Below, piece by piece: positions 1,604-11,105 of a DNA stretch of 15,069 nt; the first letter of the stretch is position 1, and the number at the start of each line of letters is the position of its first letter. The position numbers were made by a program, and so were the translations under genes. Below the pieces are notes generated by a model, which was not told the DNA's origin, did not search any database, and saw only the letters and a program-made list of their open reading frames with translations. Source of the DNA: Candidatus Hodarchaeota archaeon (lineage in GTDB: Archaea > Asgardarchaeota > Heimdallarchaeia > Hodarchaeales > Hodarchaeaceae); the NCBI GenBank assembly GCA_016840305.1, contig JAEOSP010000590.1:1-15069 (forward strand), given 5' to 3'.

Positions 1604-4207
1604 TCAGCTTGAGAATATTTTCCATTCTAATTCCTCCATTTTATTAAGAATTAGTGTTAGCTGATCCAAATGGCTTTGAAGGATAGCACCTTCCGTATCA
1701 AGTTGTATTATAAGATCTAAACATGCTTCTGCATTCATATAGATAGAATTGGTTGAAGTATTGGTCGTATCTCCTTTCAGAAGGTTCTGCCAATTAATAA
1801 TCGAAGTTTCGTTGAGTATATGAGAGGTAATATTTTCAAGAATATCAAAGGTATTATTTGCCATCAATTGACTCTGTGTGAAATTAGCTTGTGCTTCGGT
1901 ATAATTCTCCTCAGAGGTTGTATTAGTAATTAGATCTTGAGTCATTGTTTGGTTTAGTGCCTTAACACCTGATGATAAAAGTGAAATTGAATCTAAGGTT
2001 CCATCTAAGGCATCAAAATATTTATTTACGATATCAAAGCTTTCTGTAGTATTATCTACAAAGAGTATCAGTTCATCAAAAAATTCATTCAACTCACCAA
2101 ATTCTAAAGGAGTTTGGGAGTTCAAAACTGAATTCATACTATTCAAGCTGTCCTGTGTTGAATTCAAAAGAGTAGATGTCAAATCAAGTTCGTTCCTAAT
2201 ATCATCCCAAATCGGGCTATCAATATTGGATGTATTTGTGAAGTCAATGTCATCAAAAAGGCGTAGTGTGCTATTTAGCTGACTAAACATCTGCGTTCCA
2301 TTTTCCATTGAGTAAAGGAAATATTTTGTAACGGAATGAAGTCCTAAACTAAAATCTACCAAATCACGAATGGGGATTGTGGTCGTTTCGGGGATCGAAA
2401 GGACATCAATATCAAGAATTGAGGATGATCTTTCAAAATCAAGAGATGCGCTACTTAAATACTCACTTGAGAATTGAAAATCGAATAGATCATCGAGAAC
2501 TAATGATAATTTATATGTACTATTGATCCATGGAGAAATACTGTCCAAAATTGTAATTAAAATTGGTAAAGCTATCTCAATTTCGGTTAACACCGTAGAT
2601 ATTTCAGCAAAGACGGAATAATCAAGTTTTTCTTTGACTTGATCAAATAAATTAATTAACGGATTTTGAATTACTGATAGATTATTTGTCCCCAAAGTCA
2701 GCAATTGTAATGCATCTTTGAGGGTAGGGTCATAATCAGCGGACATAGCAGCACCAGTACCACTAATAGGAAATAATCCAACAGAACTTTGAAGAATAGA
2801 GAATGAGAGATTAATTCCTGATTGGAGATTGTTTAAAGCCCAAAAAATGTTTGGGGTGTACTCTAAAGAGCTAGAAAGAACATAAGTAAGATTCAAAATT
2901 CTCGGTAAATCTTTTAGCGGTATACCTGCAACTTCGGGAATTATAGAGGGAATAAGGTAGGCTATCAAAGGATTTTCGGCAAATTGGAGAAAAGAATTTC
3001 CTGCTTTATTCAAATTGAAGGTTGCACTTTCAATTAAGGCCATTAATTCATCGAAATTTGTTTCCAAATCAGTTATGAATCGTTCTGAAAAAATTTCTGT
3101 CGTTTCTGACATACCGATACCAGCATATAATGTTCCTTCCATCCCTTTACCGAATGCATGGTACGCTGTAGGAAGTAAGATTATGAAAATGATGAATAAT
3201 GATAGAAAAAATGTTTTAACAGTAAATGTGCGAACACTAACTTTCTTATTTACCTTTTCAACGAGTCCTGAAAGACTTGCTCCAATCGTAAATGGTATAA
3301 GACTCAGAAGAATAACATCAAGAAACGGAACAATCACTGCCAAAAGATCAAATCCAATAAAAAGTTGAGGACCAATTGCTGCTACAATAGGCTGACTTTT
3401 CAGTATTCCTACTAAATTCTGACGAGATATGTTGTTAAAAATACCCCAAGGATTGATTCCATCGATTAAAAAGTTCACATGTATCATTGACTCAACTATT
3501 AGGTAAGAAGCTACCAAAGAAAGTAATGATAGAGGAGCATGTCTTATAGATCTCTTTAAAATAGGATAAAGGCAGACTAGAACTGATAAAAGAACTAGTA
3601 CTAATATATACGAGCTCATTGTATCTAGCCATGATAGAGGGAGGACAATAACAACCACTGTAGGTAAAATGACGCTTAATGCAAAAGCTAAACTATTTCC
3701 TTCCACTGTATCAAGAAATGGGACATAGGATTTCTTTCTTTCGATTTCATCAGCATTTGAGGCATGGTATATTGCCTTTATTTTCCCAAGCCCTTTTATG
3801 GGTTCAGATTCAGGTTTTATGGTCTGGATCAATAGATTAACAATCGTTTGGTAGCCTATGTAGTTATACTGGGAATCCATTCCCTCCAAAACCAAGTATT
3901 CAAATTTATTGCTAAATACGAAGGAGACGGGTCCAATTTTTTCTAGTATGATCATGAGGATATGAATTTCGTCTGTATAACTTAAATCAGGACATTTCTT
4001 CATTTTCAGGTTCTTCAATTGACCACTCGCGTATTTGTATCTCTTATCGTTTCCGTGAAGTCGTAAAGCGCGTAATATTTTTTCTTTTGGAAAACTAGGA
4101 TATTCTTTACTCGGATCTTTTAAAGCATTCACTTCAAAGTTGAAAGATTCTGATTTATGTGTGTCCTCAGCATATAAATCGAAACGTATTTCCCAGTTAT
4201 CAGTCAT
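1604..4207 (-). CDS. Five-helix membrane protein with large sequon-rich extracytoplasmic domain
   Basis: I do not recognise the family. With ATG 4207 it is 867 residues. Residues 1 to about 165 are a soluble mixed alpha/beta region. About five hydrophobic helices follow: roughly 172-193, 199-217, 224-243, 280-312 (long) and 331-350. The tail of about 510 residues has no further membrane helix. Positive clusters KK before helix 1, KR..R after helix 2, and K..KK...R between helices 4 and 5 place the N-terminus inside and the tail outside. The tail holds 17 N-X-S/T sequons (about 439 to 816), and one more lies in the predicted outer loop between helices 3 and 4; none are in the cytosolic part. 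Heptad-like Leu/Ile/Ser repeats suggest a helical-bundle or stalk-like surface structure. A GTG at 4216 would add MIN, but it has no SD, whereas GTGAT sits just before ATG 4207. The start is 1 nt after the stop of the acyl-CoA synthetase gene, so the two are probably translationally coupled. A surface adhesin, sensor or scaffold is possible. Confidence 0.8.
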   Translation of the reverse strand: MTDNWEIRFDLYAEDTHKSESFNFEVNALKDPSKEYPSFPKEKILRALRLHGNDKRYKYASGQLKNLKMKKCPDLSYTDEIHILMIILEKIGPVSFVFSNKFEYLVLEGMDSQYNYIGYQTIVNLLIQTIKPESEPIKGLGKIKAIYHASNADEIERKKSYVPFLDTVEGNSLAFALSVILPTVVVIVLPLSWLDTMSSYILVLVLLSVLVCLYPILKRSIRHAPLSLLSLVASYLIVESMIHVNFLIDGINPWGIFNNISRQNLVGILKSQPIVAAIGPQLFIGFDLLAVIVPFLDVILLSLIPFTIGASLSGLVEKVNKKVSVRTFTVKTFFLSLFIIFIILLPTAYHAFGKGMEGTLYAGIGMSETTEIFSERFITDLETNFDELMALIESATFNLNKAGNSFLQFAENPLIAYLIPSIIPEVAGIPLKDLPRILNLTYVLSSSLEYTPNIFWALNNLQSGINLSFSILQSSVGLFPISGTGAAMSADYDPTLKDALQLLTLGTNNLSVIQNPLINLFDQVKEKLDYSVFAEISTVLTEIEIALPILITILDSISPWINSTYKLSLVLDDLFDFQFSSEYLSSASLDFERSSSILDIDVLSIPETTTIPIRDLVDFSLGLHSVTKYFLYSMENGTQMFSQLNSTLRLFDDIDFTNTSNIDSPIWDDIRNELDLTSTLLNSTQDSLNSMNSVLNSQTPLEFGELNEFFDELILFVDNTTESFDIVNKYFDALDGTLDSISLLSSGVKALNQTMTQDLITNTTSEENYTEAQANFTQSQLMANNTFDILENITSHILNETSIINWQNLLKGDTTNTSTNSIYMNAEACLDLIIQLDTEGAILQSHLDQLTLILNKMEELEWKIFSS

Positions 4208-4208
4208 G

Positions 4209-5642
4209 TTAATCACTTTTTTTTAGATGTTGTTTGTTTTTAAGATATTGCGCATATTCAGTAATTTTTGCGAGACTTCTAACGCATGTTCTCGGTTGAG
4301 CATACGTTGGAATCTCTAATCGTTCAAATTGGGATCTAAGAACTTCAGCTTCTTCTCCACCCATAGTTAACGCTATAAATGGTTTTTCTTTAACCCAATC
4401 TGATTTTTTGGGGTCAGAGAGATAACTCCTCATTTGCGTAACAAGTTCCATTGGATCAATATAAGGAGGGGCTGTTAGCACAACGAAAATAATAGAATCA
4501 ACATTTGGGTCAATAGCTACTTGTTCTAAGGTTAAAAAGAATTGTTCATTGGTAGAACTACCAGTTAGATCAACTGGATTGGTTTTAACGTATAGAGGAG
4601 GCAATAATGAATTTAAGTGATCAACTGTTTCATTAGAAAAATCTGCTAATTCCATTCCTTCCATAGATATTGCGTCTGATGTCATTACTCCTACACCACC
4701 GCCATTCGTAATAACAGCTACTTTATGTCCCTTTGGTAACGGTTGTGTCGCAAATACTTTACTAGCATTAATCATTTCTTCCCAATCATTAACTCGAACA
4801 ATCCCTGCTGCTGAAAGCAAATTTGAGGTAATACTGTCATTTGATGCTACACTCGCTGTATGAGAGGTAGCAGCTCTTGCACCAGCAGCAGTTCGATTTC
4901 CTTTTATGAGGATGATTGGTTTTTTCAATGAGATTTTCTCTGCTGCAGTTAAAAATCTTGCTGCATTCCTAAAACCCTCAATGTAACCGAGAATGACTTT
5001 AGTTTCATCATCATCCCCAAGGAATTCAAGAACATGTCCTTCGTGAATATCGGCTGCGTTACCAAAAGCTACAAACTTACTAACCCACCTTCCATATCCT
5101 AAATGATAAATTTCAGATAGAAAGGCTGCCCCAAAGGCACCACTCTGTGTAAAAAAGGCCATTGGTCCGTGAGTAGGACGTCGAACTTTATATCGAGGCA
5201 AAAAAATAGTATCGATTGCTTTATCAGGTACATAGATACCTAAACAGTTGGGTCCAATGAATCTAATATCATATCGATGTGTAACATCAAGAAGCTGTTG
5301 TTCGAGGATTTTTCCCTCAGAGCCAACTTCTGAAAATCCTCCTGAAAGTATCACTAATCTCTTGATTCCTTTTTGACCGCATTCTGCTGCGATATTTGGA
5401 ACCAGTCTTACTGGAGCAACAACAATACCTAGATCAGGGGTTTCTGGCAGCTCGGTAACTGATGGATAAACTTTTTTAGTGAAAAGTCGTTTCAACCGTG
5501 GATTTACAAAAAAACAATCTCCTTCAAAAGATGATTCAACAAAGTTCTTGGCAATAATGTGACCAGGAGCATCTGGTCTTTTAGAAGCACCAATCACTAC
5601 AACCGAATCAGCAGAGAAAAAGTCGTGAAGAAGATGAGCCAT
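4209..5642 (-). CDS. ADP-forming acetate/acyl-CoA synthetase, alpha subunit
   Basis: This is the CoA-ligase-type subunit of the NDP-forming acyl-CoA synthetases, which convert acyl-CoA + ADP + Pi to acid + CoA + ATP. It is 477 residues, the usual size of a stand-alone alpha subunit. The N-terminal CoA-binding Rossmann domain (about 8-135) has VVVIGAS at 14-20 and IGPNCLG at 129-135. The succinyl-CoA-synthetase-like flavodoxin domains follow, with FTQSGAFG at 164-171, FGNAADI at 193-199 and DDETKVILGYIEG at 211-223. The phosphorylated catalytic His is His261 in ATSHTAS. The third domain begins near 305 with VAVITNGGGVGVM. The ATP-grasp beta subunit is not fused and is not in the window, so it must be encoded elsewhere or beyond it. 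The enzyme is cytosolic and gives substrate-level ATP in archaeal peptide or sugar fermentation; acyl specificity cannot be read from the sequence. ATG 5642 has a TATA-like box about 50 nt upstream. It is the first gene of a coupled pair with the membrane protein. Confidence 0.9.
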   Translation of the reverse strand: MAHLLHDFFSADSVVVIGASKRPDAPGHIIAKNFVESSFEGDCFFVNPRLKRLFTKKVYPSVTELPETPDLGIVVAPVRLVPNIAAECGQKGIKRLVILSGGFSEVGSEGKILEQQLLDVTHRYDIRFIGPNCLGIYVPDKAIDTIFLPRYKVRRPTHGPMAFFTQSGAFGAAFLSEIYHLGYGRWVSKFVAFGNAADIHEGHVLEFLGDDDETKVILGYIEGFRNAARFLTAAEKISLKKPIILIKGNRTAAGARAATSHTASVASNDSITSNLLSAAGIVRVNDWEEMINASKVFATQPLPKGHKVAVITNGGGVGVMTSDAISMEGMELADFSNETVDHLNSLLPPLYVKTNPVDLTGSSTNEQFFLTLEQVAIDPNVDSIIFVVLTAPPYIDPMELVTQMRSYLSDPKKSDWVKEKPFIALTMGGEEAEVLRSQFERLEIPTYAQPRTCVRSLAKITEYAQYLKNKQHLKKSD

Positions 5643-5700: not shown

Positions 5701-5746
5701 TTCGAAATTCTTGATGTACTCCAAGTTTGAGAATCCTTTTAAGAAA

Positions 5747-5758
5747 ATAATTTTAAAA
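5747..5758 (+). promoter_or_regulatory. Putative TATA box for the GTPase operon
   Basis: The AT-only run AATAATTTTAAAA, with core TTTTAAAA at 5751-5758, lies about 50 nt ahead of GTG 5807. The expected transcription start is near 5780. It is back to back with the opposing TATA-like element at 5691-5700 in a 164-nt divergent spacer, so the two operons could share control. Confidence 0.4.
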
Positions 5759-5791
5759 GAATCAAGTGGAATTTGAATCTGTTATTACTAC

Positions 5792-5806: not shown

Positions 5807-6346
5807 GTGTCAAAGAAAAAAGGTAGCAAATTTGCTTTCAAATTGTTATTAGTGGGAGAACCTGAGTGTGGGAAAACCTCATTGATAAAGAGATATGTTG
5901 AGAACTTCTTCGAGGAGGGATACCAGATTACATTGGGAGTAGATTTCTTATCCAAAACGATCCAACTACCAGATGAAAACGGACAAGATCAGGAATTAAT
6001 TTACCAAATCTGGGATGTCGCGGGACAATCTGGATTCACAAACTTTCGTCACTTGTATCTCAAAAAAGCACACGGGGTTTTCTTGGTTTTTGATCTATCT
6101 CGCCCAGATGAGACTTTCGATAAACTCGACCGATGGCGGAAAGATGTTCAGGAACAAAGTCCCAATGCAAAAATCATAGTAATCGGAAATAAAGAGGATC
6201 TTGTGGATTTAGAAAATCTACCGATCTCTGAGAAGGAAGCACTTAAAAAACTTGAAGCTCATGGTTATATAACGACTTCAGCAAAAACTGGAGCAAAAGT
6301 AGAAGGAGCATTTGTTCAGATGGGAAAACTAATTCTAGGTAAGTGA
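5807..6346 (+). CDS. Rab/Ras-like small GTPase
   Basis: A single-domain small GTPase of 179 residues with every G motif in order: P-loop GEPECGKTS (17-25), switch-I Thr42 in QITLGVDF, G3 WDVAGQ (69-74) with the Gln61-equivalent Gln74, G4 NKED (128-131), and G5 TSAKTG (157-162). Rab-like features are W69 before the DxxG motif, the switch-II stretch FTNFRHLYLKKAHG, and VFDLSRPDETFDKLDRW. The P-loop has Pro19 and Glu20 where Ras has Gly12 and Gly13. The C-terminus ends LILGK with no Cys, so classical prenylation is not possible; membrane contact would need the Lys-rich N-terminus or a partner. It is first in a likely operon, 6 nt ahead of the longin/roadblock gene, which suggests that protein is its partner or regulator. 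Asgard archaea are known for many such GTPases. The cellular process is unknown. Confidence 0.95.
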   Translation: MSKKKGSKFAFKLLLVGEPECGKTSLIKRYVENFFEEGYQITLGVDFLSKTIQLPDENGQDQELIYQIWDVAGQSGFTNFRHLYLKKAHGVFLVFDLSRPDETFDKLDRWRKDVQEQSPNAKIIVIGNKEDLVDLENLPISEKEALKKLEAHGYITTSAKTGAKVEGAFVQMGKLILGK

Positions 6347-6352
6347 AGAGAA

Positions 6353-7141
6353 ATGGTTTCGTTTGATGAATTAGAGGTGTTTCTTGGTTTTTATGTCTTC
6401 ACTAACAAAGGACGTCCATTGATAACGAGAGATTTTCGTCCAGCAAAGGAAATAGTCGAATTTCCACCAAAGATGATATTCTCACTTCTCAATTCTGCAT
6501 TTGAAGTGAGTCAAAGTCTAAAAGAAGAATCAATCGAAAAAGGGCAAATTTTTCATGTTGATTTTGCTAGTATGCGAATAGCAGGAATCATGCGCAATGA
6601 GGGTCTTTTTACATTAATATCTTCTGCTTCTGCATCTCTTTTAGATTTAGAATTCAAATTAAGAACATTAATGACCTTGTTTTTAGGGAGTTTTTCATTC
6701 AAATTTGCACGAAAAACGATTCGCATAACAAAGAATGAACAACAAGATTTTGATGAGGCATTACTTACCGTTATGACTGGTGAGTCACGTTACATGGGAG
6801 AACCTATGAAAAAATCTGTGAAGGAACATCTTAATTTATGGATTGAGAGAGAAGTATCTATCAGAGGAGCCTGTGTATCTTCGTTCACCGGGGCAGTTAT
6901 AGTTAATCTTATGGATTCGAATATACTTCCTGCTGCAGTTCGTGCTATTCGTGGAGCGTTTGCTGCTCATTTGGAACAACCTTTATTCTTTTTAGCAGTA
7001 AGTGGAGTTTCAAATATAATCGTTTATATTTTAGGTGAAGGTCTACTACTGCTAATTGATGCTGATCCAAAAACAGACCCATCAACCACAATAACCGCTA
7101 TTTCTAAGGAAATTAGAGATATCAAACAACTGCTTCAATAA
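6353..7141 (+). CDS. Longin-like plus roadblock/LC7-like protein, probable GTPase partner
   Basis: The protein is 262 residues and appears to hold two folds. Residues about 8-140 look like a longin domain: strand GFYVFTNKGRPLITRDF (12-28), a helix around 40-56, strands HVDFASMRIAGIM and GLFTLISS, then a long amphipathic helix (95-115) ending FLGSFSFKF. Residues about 168-260 look like a roadblock/LC7 (MglB-type) domain: SIRGACVSSFTGAVIVN, helix ILPAAVRAIRGAFAAHL, strands FFLAVSGVSNIIVYILGEG and LLLLIDAD, then a terminal helix. In eukaryotes, longin and roadblock proteins form GTPase platforms and exchange factors (Mon1-Ccz1, TRAPP, Ragulator), and bacterial MglB roadblock is the GAP of MglA. 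With the GTPase stop only 6 nt upstream, a GEF, GAP or scaffold role for that GTPase is likely, but this is inference. No membrane helix is seen. Fold assignment is by pattern only; the roadblock half is the surer one. Confidence 0.75.
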   Translation: MVSFDELEVFLGFYVFTNKGRPLITRDFRPAKEIVEFPPKMIFSLLNSAFEVSQSLKEESIEKGQIFHVDFASMRIAGIMRNEGLFTLISSASASLLDLEFKLRTLMTLFLGSFSFKFARKTIRITKNEQQDFDEALLTVMTGESRYMGEPMKKSVKEHLNLWIEREVSIRGACVSSFTGAVIVNLMDSNILPAAVRAIRGAFAAHLEQPLFFLAVSGVSNIIVYILGEGLLLLIDADPKTDPSTTITAISKEIRDIKQLLQ

Positions 7142-7172
7142 GTAAAACTCTTCTGGACTGTGAAGAATAACT

Positions 7173-9263
7173 GTGTCATCTGAAAAAGGCGGGTCAGTCT
7201 TCTTTCCCATTGTATTTCATATGCATCAACCTTTGGGTAATTTTCCGTGGGTTTTTCAGGACTCGTATGAAAAATCTTACCTTCCCCTACTTGAAACTAT
7301 ATCTAAATATCCTGAGATAAAAGTTAACTTACATATTACTGGTCCACTACTTCTTTGGCTCAAAGATAATCAACCAGAATATCTAAATTTAATATGTGAC
7401 CTTTATAAGAAGAAACAAATCGAAATTGTAGGTGGAGGTTTTTATGAGCCTATTTTAGCTATTCTACCTGAAGCTGATAGACAAAAACAAATCCAAATGA
7501 CGATTGATTGGTGGGAATCCAACTACGAGATTATTCCACATGGTTTCTGGTTAGCAGAGAGAGTTTGGACACCTGATCTCCCGTTAACTCTCGCTAATTC
7601 AGGAATTGAATTTGTCTTTATAGATGATTATTTATTTCGGATGGCAGGGTTTTCAGAATCAGAAACATATTTTGCTTACAAAACTGAATTTCAGGGTAAA
7701 ACAGTAACTGTTTTTCCCATCAATGAACGTATTCGTTATTTCGTCCCGTGGAGAGAGGCAAAAGAAACAATCCAGTACCTTGAGAAAGCACGTGATAAGA
7801 ATAATGAACAAATTGTCGTCATGATATCTGATGCCGAAAAAATGGGAATCTGGCCCGCTGGTGATCGTACAACTCACGATATTTGTTATGTGAATGGATA
7901 TGATGGAAAACAGGGATGGATGCATAGTTTTTTTAAAGCCATCATCACACACAAATGGATAAAGCCTATTTTAATAAGTGACTACTTGAAAGAATACCAC
8001 CCGAGAGGGCTCATATATTTACCAACAAGTTCTTACGATAAAATGGCTACTTGGGCTTTACCTACTCCTCTTAGAAAGCGTCTCGAATTGTTACATGAAA
8101 AAGCGAAAAATGAGGATATGCCTTGTAGCAAGGACATTAAAATGTTCGCTACTGGCTCATTCTGGCAAAACTTTCTAGTGAAGTATCCACAAGCCAATAT
8201 CATGCATAAAAGAATGCTTTTTTGTAGAAATAAAATGGAGAAAATCCGTAAGATCCTCCCTGAGAATGAAAAACATCTCCTCGAACCTGCGTGGAATTTT
8301 ATCCTTGCAAGTCAATCCAATGATGTCTTCTGGCACGGTTTATTCGGAGGAGTTTATTATAGATTCTTACGACAAACTGCCCACAGGAATATTCTACAAG
8401 CGGAGGTTTTATTGGATTCCGTTGCTAATGAGTTTAATTTCACTTTCTACGGTAGTAAGATCGAAGATGTACTCCTTGATGGACATCCTGATGGAATTTT
8501 AGAGAATAAATATATTTCATGCTTTATTTCTTCTTTAAAAGGGGGATCTATCTTCTCCCTTAACTTAAAAGACAGGTATTACAATTTTTCGAACGTTTTA
8601 AGGCGTCAATTAGAAGCTTATCATACTGATAATGTCCCCGCAATTAATGATCGATTTGAAAAATGGTCATTTCAGGATCATTTCATTCAGTATCTAGATA
8701 CACCTGAATTATACCAAGATGATCAATACGTTGATATTGGAAATTTTGCAAATCAAAAATATAATATTGTGAAGAATTCCAATAGAACCATCTCTTTCAT
8801 TCGTAATGGTAATCTATTTATCAAAGAAAAACGAATATCAGCAAAAATAGTAAAGAATTACAGCCTTACTTCAACAGTTCTGAAGATTGAATATACTATT
8901 GAAATTTCTGAGAAATTAGGGGGTTTTGAGATTTATTTTGTGCCAGAAATGAATTTTATTGGATCCTCTTACCCATATAAAACGAATGGATATATTAATG
9001 AACAGAAATTCGATCTTGAAGATATTACAAATCAAACCGATTGTGAGTCAATTGAAATTAGGGATGAGAATGAGTTAGAAATGGCTTCTCTCTCTATTCA
9101 CTTTCCCTACGTAGTTGAGTGTATTATATTTCCTTTAATGTCCTTCCCAAAAAGTGAGTTAGGAATTGAAAAACAATATCAAGGCACTTCGATATTTCCA
9201 TTCATCAAAATCTCCAAGAAAAAGTCTGAATTTTCGATCGAAATAAACCTTAAATCCTTGTAA
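7173..9263 (+). CDS. GH57 4-alpha-glucanotransferase / alpha-amylase
   Basis: A glycoside hydrolase family 57 enzyme of 696 residues, close in layout to the Thermococcus litoralis 4-alpha-glucanotransferase (about 659). The conserved regions are in order: HMHQP (16-20), GGGFYEPILA (87-96), GFWLAERVW (124-132) with nucleophile Glu129, SDAEKMGIWP (219-228) with acid/base Asp220, and SYDKMATWALP (287-297). A helical domain follows, with FWHGLFGGVYYRFLR near 390, and a beta-rich C-terminal domain from about 430 to the end, as in DUF1925/DUF1926-bearing members. The enzyme would cleave and transfer alpha-1,4-glucans in glycogen or maltodextrin metabolism. No signal peptide is seen, so it is intracellular. 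Start GTG 7173 has no strong SD; the next ATG lies inside motif 1, so the GTG is needed. It begins 31 nt after the longin/roadblock gene with no TATA box between, so it is probably the third gene of that operon. Confidence 0.92.
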   Translation: MSSEKGGSVFFPIVFHMHQPLGNFPWVFQDSYEKSYLPLLETISKYPEIKVNLHITGPLLLWLKDNQPEYLNLICDLYKKKQIEIVGGGFYEPILAILPEADRQKQIQMTIDWWESNYEIIPHGFWLAERVWTPDLPLTLANSGIEFVFIDDYLFRMAGFSESETYFAYKTEFQGKTVTVFPINERIRYFVPWREAKETIQYLEKARDKNNEQIVVMISDAEKMGIWPAGDRTTHDICYVNGYDGKQGWMHSFFKAIITHKWIKPILISDYLKEYHPRGLIYLPTSSYDKMATWALPTPLRKRLELLHEKAKNEDMPCSKDIKMFATGSFWQNFLVKYPQANIMHKRMLFCRNKMEKIRKILPENEKHLLEPAWNFILASQSNDVFWHGLFGGVYYRFLRQTAHRNILQAEVLLDSVANEFNFTFYGSKIEDVLLDGHPDGILENKYISCFISSLKGGSIFSLNLKDRYYNFSNVLRRQLEAYHTDNVPAINDRFEKWSFQDHFIQYLDTPELYQDDQYVDIGNFANQKYNIVKNSNRTISFIRNGNLFIKEKRISAKIVKNYSLTSTVLKIEYTIEISEKLGGFEIYFVPEMNFIGSSYPYKTNGYINEQKFDLEDITNQTDCESIEIRDENELEMASLSIHFPYVVECIIFPLMSFPKSELGIEKQYQGTSIFPFIKISKKKSEFSIEINLKSL

Positions 9264-9598: not shown

Positions 9599-9669
9599 GG
9601 TATCAAAAAGCTCAAAAGAAGGAAACTAGAACGTCTTTCTGACTAATAATTGTTATTTGCTAAAAATAC

Positions 9670-9676
9670 GAGGTCG
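9670..9676 (+). promoter_or_regulatory. Shine-Dalgarno site selecting TTG 9683
   Basis: GAGGTCG sits 8 nt or less ahead of TTG 9683, good archaeal spacing. The in-frame TTG at 9650 has no SD, so the SD argues for the shorter protein. Confidence 0.5.
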
Positions 9677-9682
9677 ATAAAT

Positions 9683-10081
9683 TTGCTTCAAGTTACGAAA
9701 AAACATCTAAGAGTTATAATTGACAGGGGAGCTAGATTACGTCAGTATTTTTTGAGAGGACATTCAAGTTGGTTTGCACTGGCGTTTTCCTTGATAAATT
9801 TTACTTTAATCTTCTACAATCTGCTTTTCGTGAATCTTTATTTCATTCCAGATATATTTAAGTCCTTTTCAGTTTTTTTCATAATATTTTCTTGTCTTTA
9901 TCTTCCATTTGCTTCTTTAATAGGTTATTTGGATTTTAAAAAAGGAACTTATAATGCGGAACAACAATTAACAAAAGAAGTTTCACCAGTTTGGCGTGAA
10001 GTATTTGCCAAATTTACTGTTCTAGAAAAACAAAACCAAGAATTATTAAATGCACTTCAAAATATCAACAATGAAAAGTGA
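9683..10081 (+). CDS. Small two-helix membrane protein with coiled-coil tail
   Basis: I do not recognise the family. From TTG 9683 it is 132 residues: a basic amphipathic N-terminus (LQVTKKHLRVIIDRGARLRQYFLRG), a first membrane helix in SWFALAFSLINFTLIFYNLLF, a second in VFFIIFSCLYLPFASLIGYL, then a soluble tail with a probable coiled coil (EVFAKFTVLEKQNQELLNALQNI). The basic N-terminus and the charged DFKKGTY after helix 2 place both ends in the cytoplasm, so the protein is a membrane hairpin. The start was chosen by the SD at 9670-9676; TTG 9650 would add 11 residues. It has its own TATA box and the gap to the next gene is 121 nt, so it may be monocistronic. A subunit-anchoring or oligomerising role is only a guess. 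Confidence 0.65.
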   Translation: MLQVTKKHLRVIIDRGARLRQYFLRGHSSWFALAFSLINFTLIFYNLLFVNLYFIPDIFKSFSVFFIIFSCLYLPFASLIGYLDFKKGTYNAEQQLTKEVSPVWREVFAKFTVLEKQNQELLNALQNINNEK

Positions 10082-10202: not shown

Positions 10203-11105
10203 ATGGGGATATCTATGGTAGTCGTTTCTCAAATTTGGATTCAACATCTTAACTGTATGCAAATAATTGGACATTGCCATTTACGATTAGGATCAGAATT
10301 AGAACCAAATTTGGGTGGGACATTATACACAGCACTTGTAACTGCTTTAGCTGAAATCGAACCTCCTCCAAATGAATATATAATGAGTGGTGTGTATGGT
10401 TTTAAAATACCTGATAATGAAGGGATCGGTTTTTTCACAATTCAAAATAAGAATTTTCGGATATTTTTTCTCTGTGAAGGCCTTTTCGGGACTGGAGTAC
10501 CATATCTGGCTGGTACAAAAATTTCTAAAAGCATTCGTGAACTTTTCAACTGGCTCGAAGCTGAAATATCTAATGATGATTGTCAATTAGCACATGTTAC
10601 AACGTTAGATGATTCCTCATGGTTTGATCTAATTACTTCACTTGAATTCGGACGCAATATTCCAATTGAACAGTATGAGGTAGTTTATCCTCTCCGTTAT
10701 ATTCGTATAAACATTTCTCGACCTGAACCTAGAAATGTAGTTATTAATGACCTTGAAACATCTGAAATTTTAGCGCCGATTTCTATCGGTTGGTTAGATA
10801 TTGATCGTGTGATAGCAGCGAAAATTCAAGGAATATTTAGCAAACCACATTTCAGTTTTCTAATATACGAAGCCTTGTTTAATCAAATTTCTGAGTTTGT
10901 ACCAAACTTTCAGCCGAATACAATAATATTAACTTATTCGAGGGGTGATCTTCTTGAGAACCAAGTGTCTATTGTATCATTTCTGAGTATTCAGGAGAAT
11001 TCCTTGACAATCAGGTACTGTCTACCTATACAGACAGGTCTCGGAATAGAGGGAAGTCAGAAAGTCCATTCGTATCTACGCTCAATATATTTAAATCCTC
11101 TCTAG
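10203..11105 (+). CDS. Hypothetical 300-residue alpha/beta protein
   Basis: No family recognised. It is a soluble protein of 300 residues, with no signal peptide or membrane helix. Residues about 8-120 alternate strands and helices: IWIQHLNCMQIIGHCHL, then helix GGTLYTALVTALAEIE, then strands YIMSGVYGFKIP, GIGFFTIQ and FRIFFLCEGLF, then helix SKSIRELFNWLEAEI. This order loosely recalls longin/roadblock-type folds, but I see no diagnostic motif. The C-terminal half (about 150-300) has IRINISRP, a helix DRVIAAKIQGIF and further strand-rich sequence. The start is uncertain: ATG 10203 has no SD, while ATG 10215 has GGGGAT four bases upstream and would drop MGIS. Codon use matches the neighbours, and the full-length open frame supports a real gene. 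Function is unknown. Confidence 0.7.
   Translation: MGISMVVVSQIWIQHLNCMQIIGHCHLRLGSELEPNLGGTLYTALVTALAEIEPPPNEYIMSGVYGFKIPDNEGIGFFTIQNKNFRIFFLCEGLFGTGVPYLAGTKISKSIRELFNWLEAEISNDDCQLAHVTTLDDSSWFDLITSLEFGRNIPIEQYEVVYPLRYIRINISRPEPRNVVINDLETSEILAPISIGWLDIDRVIAAKIQGIFSKPHFSFLIYEALFNQISEFVPNFQPNTIILTYSRGDLLENQVSIVSFLSIQENSLTIRYCLPIQTGLGIEGSQKVHSYLRSIYLNPL

Follow-up and report, generated by a model that had tools for sequence, protein, structure and literature searches.

The 15,069-nucleotide (nt) stretch analyzed here (the window; contig JAEOSP010000590.1 of the Candidatus Hodarchaeota archaeon assembly GCA_016840305.1) carries a gene for a Rab-like small GTPase directly followed by a gene for a two-domain longin-roadblock protein (LR), and we found that the two form a conserved module in Asgard archaea. 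A gene of glycoside hydrolase (GH) family 57 completes a same-strand triplet. We report the GTPase-LR module as new, having found no publication on it in the open-access literature searched, a scope that leaves subscription papers and preprints mostly outside. Rab-like GTPases are numerous in Asgard genomes (72 matches in one 5.8-Mb genome, G082), and in the accessible part of their paper the authors of the MK-D1 study state that gene layout there gives no assignment of regulators to GTPases (PMC10933270). The module offers one-to-one GTPase/regulator pairs in a group often placed nearest to eukaryotes, with an LR partner that resembles in shape the two leading domains of Mon1 and Ccz1. Such ready-made pairs with a Mon1/Ccz1-like partner make the origin of Rab exchange factors testable with two small soluble proteins.

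Distant loci were found with a profile of type-1 LR only, the type present in the window; the GTPase was not part of the query. This profile detected relatives in 17/227 genomes of the phylum; besides type 1 these were a second type, which shares the Hodarchaeal genomes with it, and some scattered members. A wider LR profile matched in 217/227 genomes, mostly with weak E-values. Among 28 distinct close LR rows, 24 had 300 nt or more of DNA upstream, and in 23 of these a same-strand Ras-family gene lay directly upstream, no more than 25 nt away. The one exception comes second, after another LR, in a GTPase-LR-LR set (L035). One of the four close rows that lack upstream DNA, the first LR of G082, is nonetheless preceded by a GTPase, in the gene order GTPase-LR-GTPase-LR (C11:383672-386319). 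By contrast, a profile and motif search detected a GTPase within 400 nt of 0/52 distant Asgard longin-roadblock rows. The chance expectation of a random GTPase neighbour is ~1 in 100, a rough estimate from the 72 matches in the 5.8-Mb genome. A preliminary description of the window, made from its letters and open reading frames (ORFs), had proposed a dedicated GTPase/partner pair whose gene order should be kept in relatives, and the contrast between close and distant rows bears this out.

The two sets compared were composed as follows. The close rows include L037 and L007, probably halves of one gene, and L026 and L027 were merged with L024 (identical ends). The split between close and distant rows uses A2, which holds 20 close-family members, so that the E-values of the close family are raised by construction. 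The distant set combines 13 loci from the wider search with 40 hand-picked regions, one identical row having been dropped; the hand-picked rows are a selection from, and not all of, those with E up to 1e-14 (G083, G081 and others were omitted), and 37/52 match both domains end to end. One distant row, L132 (1644-2549, minus strand), is a 301-amino-acid (aa) frame that matches the GTPase profile and partly LR, an apparent GTPase-longin fusion. At L034, a second small-GTPase-like frame (3073-3528) lies near the GTPase-LR pair on the opposite strand.

Both partners are inherited together. The two LR-neighbouring GTPases of G005 are the best two of 32 matches to the window GTPase, and those of G082 the best two of 72. 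We built a GTPase tree of 80 rows, comprising 24 paired GTPases and 28 others from each of these two genomes (background drawn from the best 30 of 32 and the best 30 of 72 matches). The 24 paired GTPases and one long-branch other formed one set (Shimodaira-Hasegawa-like approximate likelihood ratio test, SH-aLRT, 96), and a tree constrained to hold the 24 together was not rejected (approximately unbiased test, p-AU 0.68). Pairwise distances of 23 GTPases correlated with those of their LR partners (r 0.96, with 0/9999 permutations as high).

The preliminary description had further placed the DNA in an Asgard-like archaeon and read from it three same-strand genes separated by 6 and 31 nt, a Rab-like GTPase carrying the G motifs, and a second protein made of a longin followed by a roadblock domain; all of this held. 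Re-inspection reproduced the arrangement and both gaps exactly, and the closest copy of LR (P0001, 97% identity) is named Candidatus Hodarchaeales archaeon. The GTPase matches Pfam Ras (1.1e-37), and its best solved chains are YPT6 (3e-27), Rab6 forms, a Thorarchaeal Rab (9e-26) and Rab2. Motifs G1, G3, G4 and G5 are present as the P-loop GEPECGKT, DVAGQ, NKED and TSAK; the glutamine of DVAGQ, presumably the catalytic position, is kept. The C-terminal prenylation cysteine of Rabs is absent: 0/23 paired GTPases examined carry a cysteine in their last 10 residues. Any membrane placement must therefore come from the partner or from the basic N-terminus, and the GTPase is probably cytosolic or recruited by LR. 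The AlphaFold2 model of LR consists of a canonical longin domain (predicted topology bb-a-bbb-aa) and then a roadblock domain (a-bb-a-bbb-a), topologies equal to those given for longin domains LD1 and LD2 of Mon1/Ccz1 in the available portion of PMC8833172. Conservation in LR is highest in the stretch with DxEFKLRT, GESR and SFTG. Whole-chain Foldseek searches returned MON1A-CCZ1, BLOC-3, Mon1-Ccz1 and CPLANE as top PDB matches; Mon1-Ccz1, one of the complexes with which the preliminary description had suggested comparison, was thus the best structural match. At the domain level (VIA-align), the longin domain matches synbindin, and the roadblock domain matches p14/MP1, the C-terminal domains of Rag GTPases and the Asgard Roadblock3 entries 9jue and 7yh1.

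We hypothesize that the Rab-like GTPase and LR are a cognate pair, in which LR is the GTPase's own platform and drives its nucleotide cycle; we assign this a probability of about 0.7. LR chains would dimerize via their longin and/or roadblock faces into a flat platform, which would hold one GTPase of its cognate kind and alter its nucleotide state. We infer both GTPase-LR binding and LR dimerization; the accessible sections of PMC10933270 and PMC8833172 describe such dimer behaviour as general for longin and roadblock platforms. A platform is the most likely arrangement by analogy with the longin/roadblock dimers of Mon1-Ccz1, TRAPP and MglA-MglB, and the GTPase-LR-LR (L035) and GTPase-LR-GTPase-LR (G082) arrangements are possible heterodimer platforms. 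As for the step affected, we give nucleotide exchange about an even chance; the LD1-LD2 match and a partner of Rab type speak for it and put it first. Hydrolysis is placed second by analogy with MglB, yet it is rather unlikely that LR is a GTPase-activating partner of that kind, as LR carries a longin domain in front that MglB does not, its GTPase is nearest to Rabs, and its top whole-chain matches are subunits of Rab exchange factors. LR could also serve as an effector or scaffold, sensing the state of the GTPase and leaving the cycle unchanged, as Ragulator holds Rag GTPases. The p14/MP1 and Rag matches of the roadblock domain agree with such a role, but we consider it improbable, as strict one-to-one pairing would be more usual for a dedicated regulator.

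Several observations weigh against the cognate-pair reading and its exchange-factor form. Aligned over the whole chain, LR reached a template modelling (TM) score of ~0.34-0.38 and a root-mean-square deviation (rmsd) of ~11 Å against Mon1 and Fuzzy (Foldseek), values which indicate that its two-domain arrangement is not matched by these proteins. The Pfam profile PF19036, which covers the first longin of FUZ, MON1 and HPS1, matched 10/20 members of the LR family at E≤0.01 (best 2e-5), in no case reaching the curated cut-off, and did not match the window's own LR at E 0.01. It also matched in 170/227 Asgard genomes, many times in proteins of ~140 aa, and in 0/14 controls; Asgard longins thus generally resemble the MON1 type and LR is not singled out, which rules out a PF19036 match as proof of a special kinship of LR to MON1. 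In the GTPase tree, one background row fell inside the paired group and 32/77 inner branches were left open, and the correlation of GTPase and LR distances is partly due to common species history. Finally, the window GTPase and LR share a reading frame, parted by a TGA, and a model of the fused chain, bridged by three residues, reached a predicted TM score (pTM) of 0.42 and a mean predicted local distance difference test (pLDDT) of 70.5, the switch regions of the GTPase scoring low in pLDDT; its Foldseek matches were just Rabs and Rags. Given this pTM, we discarded fused-chain docking as evidence for or against an interface. The preliminary description had given the GTPase a regulator of its own: the dedicated partner gene stands, and exchange factor is its proposed role.

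By its domain set (PF03065, PF09094 and PF09095) and its alignment to the Thermococcus litoralis enzyme 1k1w (E 6.2e-114), the third gene encodes a predicted 4-alpha-glucanotransferase of alpha-glucan metabolism. Its residues E129 and D220 align with E123 and D214, which we take to be the catalytic pair of 1k1w. A catalytic Glu/Asp pair is general in GH57 enzymes, according to the part of PMC6037648 available. The ten genomes with type-1 LR (G001-G009 and G052) likely possess an alpha-glucan pathway, given a match resembling GT5 (glycosyltransferase family 5) glycogen synthase in 9/10 and a clear phosphorylase match in 8/10, with one more degenerate.

The preliminary description had tied the GTPase to this enzyme and suggested a glucan-associated compartment; the compartment was not borne out, and the tie was borne out only in part. 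The GH57 gene is the next gene in 9/11 type-1 loci (the window, L001-L005 and L007-L009 out of the window and L001-L010), on the same strand and 17-48 nt after LR (to the furthest upstream start). In the 14 genomes searched, the long GH57 type was found only beside type-1 LR, in 8 genomes, as judged from position and open frame. At L006, the frame after LR corresponds to the start of a GH77 4-alpha-glucanotransferase (first 196 positions, E 3.3e-62). These three points count against the explanation that GH57 is a mere neighbour, a housekeeping 4-alpha-glucanotransferase kept in a generally conserved gene order without functional tie. We nonetheless lean towards that explanation: the peptidase, 870-aa membrane protein and orf143 genes that flank the triplet are kept in many of the same loci; L010 retains LR and orf143 with nothing coding between them, and its genome (G009) contains no GH57 or GH77 match; and no glucan enzyme accompanies the type-2 GTPase-LR pairs within the 3.6-3.8 kb fetched, where acetyltransferase-like and peptidase-like ORFs (named by eye) lie downstream. 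Nor did this analysis bring up a case of a GTPase acting on a glucan enzyme. Control of GH57 by the GTPase switch is doubtful, and would be just one of several possible reasons for the three genes to travel together; if real, it would put a Rab-like switch to an unexpected use.

With a true functional tie, one would expect the slot to be taken at times by another enzyme family that catalyses the same reaction, and L006 offers a single such case. The GTPase, LR and GH77 start of L006 share a single 2.3-kb piece of an assembly full of gaps, and the GH77 frame ends at an assembly gap. A second GH77 end piece lies elsewhere in G006, besides an ordinary full GH77 gene; this C-terminal piece is presumably the remainder of the L006 gene. 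With a query joined from the two pieces, no second case was found, close relatives occurring only on contigs (longest 40,902 and 24,845 bases) outside the longest LR-cluster contigs; we therefore dropped the GH77 swap as a repeated event. The L006 contig may be chimeric. The "chromosome" of bin272 (CP070760; L006, L062 and L063) consists of pieces joined by 100-N gaps, which in one fetched stretch recur at intervals of about 1.8 kb, so gene order across gaps is untrustworthy.

A broader scenario would make LR the surviving two-domain ancestor of the tri-longin Rab exchange factors, an LD1-LD2 homodimer (in some Asgards a heterodimer from two adjacent LR genes) that activates one dedicated Rab-like GTPase and is wired to alpha-glucan turnover in Hodarchaeales, the switch and its activator predating endomembranes as a control of metabolism or storage granules. 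We regard this as a long shot.

Features of the window are listed in Table 1. The candidate operon promoter recurs by eye as CTTTTAAG or CTTATAAG/A in L001-L004, L006, L008 and L009, and is less clear in L005. The gene for orf143 keeps its position in 8/10 loci (tblastn), after GH57 in L001-L005, L007 and L009 and after LR in L010, the exceptions being L006 and L008; its protein has a weak SLATT_5 match (E 0.029, below the cut-off). The flanking 870-aa protein (1604-4216, minus strand) is probably membrane-spanning, as judged by eye, and its gene overlaps by 8 nt that of a CoA-ligase subunit (4209-5642, minus strand), for which tblastn gave no match in the corresponding stretch of L001-L004 and L008 and only pieces in L005. 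Further along, orf300 (10203-11105) encodes 300 aa with no Pfam match and 58-77% identity across five other loci. Its strand/helix rhythm suggested a further longin/roadblock protein, a reading that profile comparison with LR did not bear out (probability ≤0.2%, from an alignment of only six rows).

Table 1. Features of the window, with the basis of each assignment.
Feature	Positions	Strand	Basis
AT-rich TATA-like stretch (CTTTTAAGAAAATA...TTTTAAAAG), candidate operon promoter	5730..5775	+	By eye, 5' of the GTPase gene
Rab-like small GTPase, 179 aa, without C-terminal cysteine	5807..6346	+	Pfam Ras, solved-chain matches, motifs and tail
LR protein, 262 aa: longin ~residues 9-144, roadblock ~150-262	6353..7141	+	AlphaFold2, Foldseek, VIA-align, family alignment
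Predicted GH57 4-alpha-glucanotransferase, 696 aa	7173..9263	+	PF03065, PF09094, PF09095; 1k1w alignment
orf143, small conserved protein, first gene after GH57	9650..10081	+	tblastn matches in relatives

The GH57 protein shares its Pfam domains and aligned catalytic pair with the T. litoralis 4-alpha-glucanotransferase, whereas the Asgard version sits in a GTPase operon and its activity is predicted. In MglA-MglB and the actinobacterial conservons, too, a roadblock gene adjoins that of a small GTPase (PMC4316618, in the portion available), and the roadblock fold is shared; unlike MglB, LR is not a stand-alone roadblock but has an added longin, and its GTPase, judged by the nearest solved relatives, is of Rab and not of MglA type. 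The synbindin-like longin and the 9jue- and 7yh1-like roadblock of LR recall the TRAPP core longins and the Asgard roadblock-longin proteins of Tran et al. (2024). The folds of roadblock, longin and GTPase proteins from Asgards are already in print, and in the accessible text of PMC10933270 those authors describe the MK-D1 GTPase genes as generally lying outside operons with such genes. The 0/52 distant rows fit this remark, and the paired family, in which GTPase and LR share an operon, is the exception to it. Compared with the tri-longin Rab exchange factors (Mon1-Ccz1, BLOC-3 and Fuzzy-Inturned), LR is archaeal and, at 262 aa, has no LD3 of the lamtor type, its chain ending at residue 262 with the roadblock helix; its model leaves no room for the aX-bX linker described in the available part of PMC8833172, with only residues 143-149 between the domains. 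A few of its relatives have two LR genes per operon. What LR shares with these exchange factors is the order of a longin LD1 followed by a roadblock-type LD2, and a Rab-like GTPase as partner.

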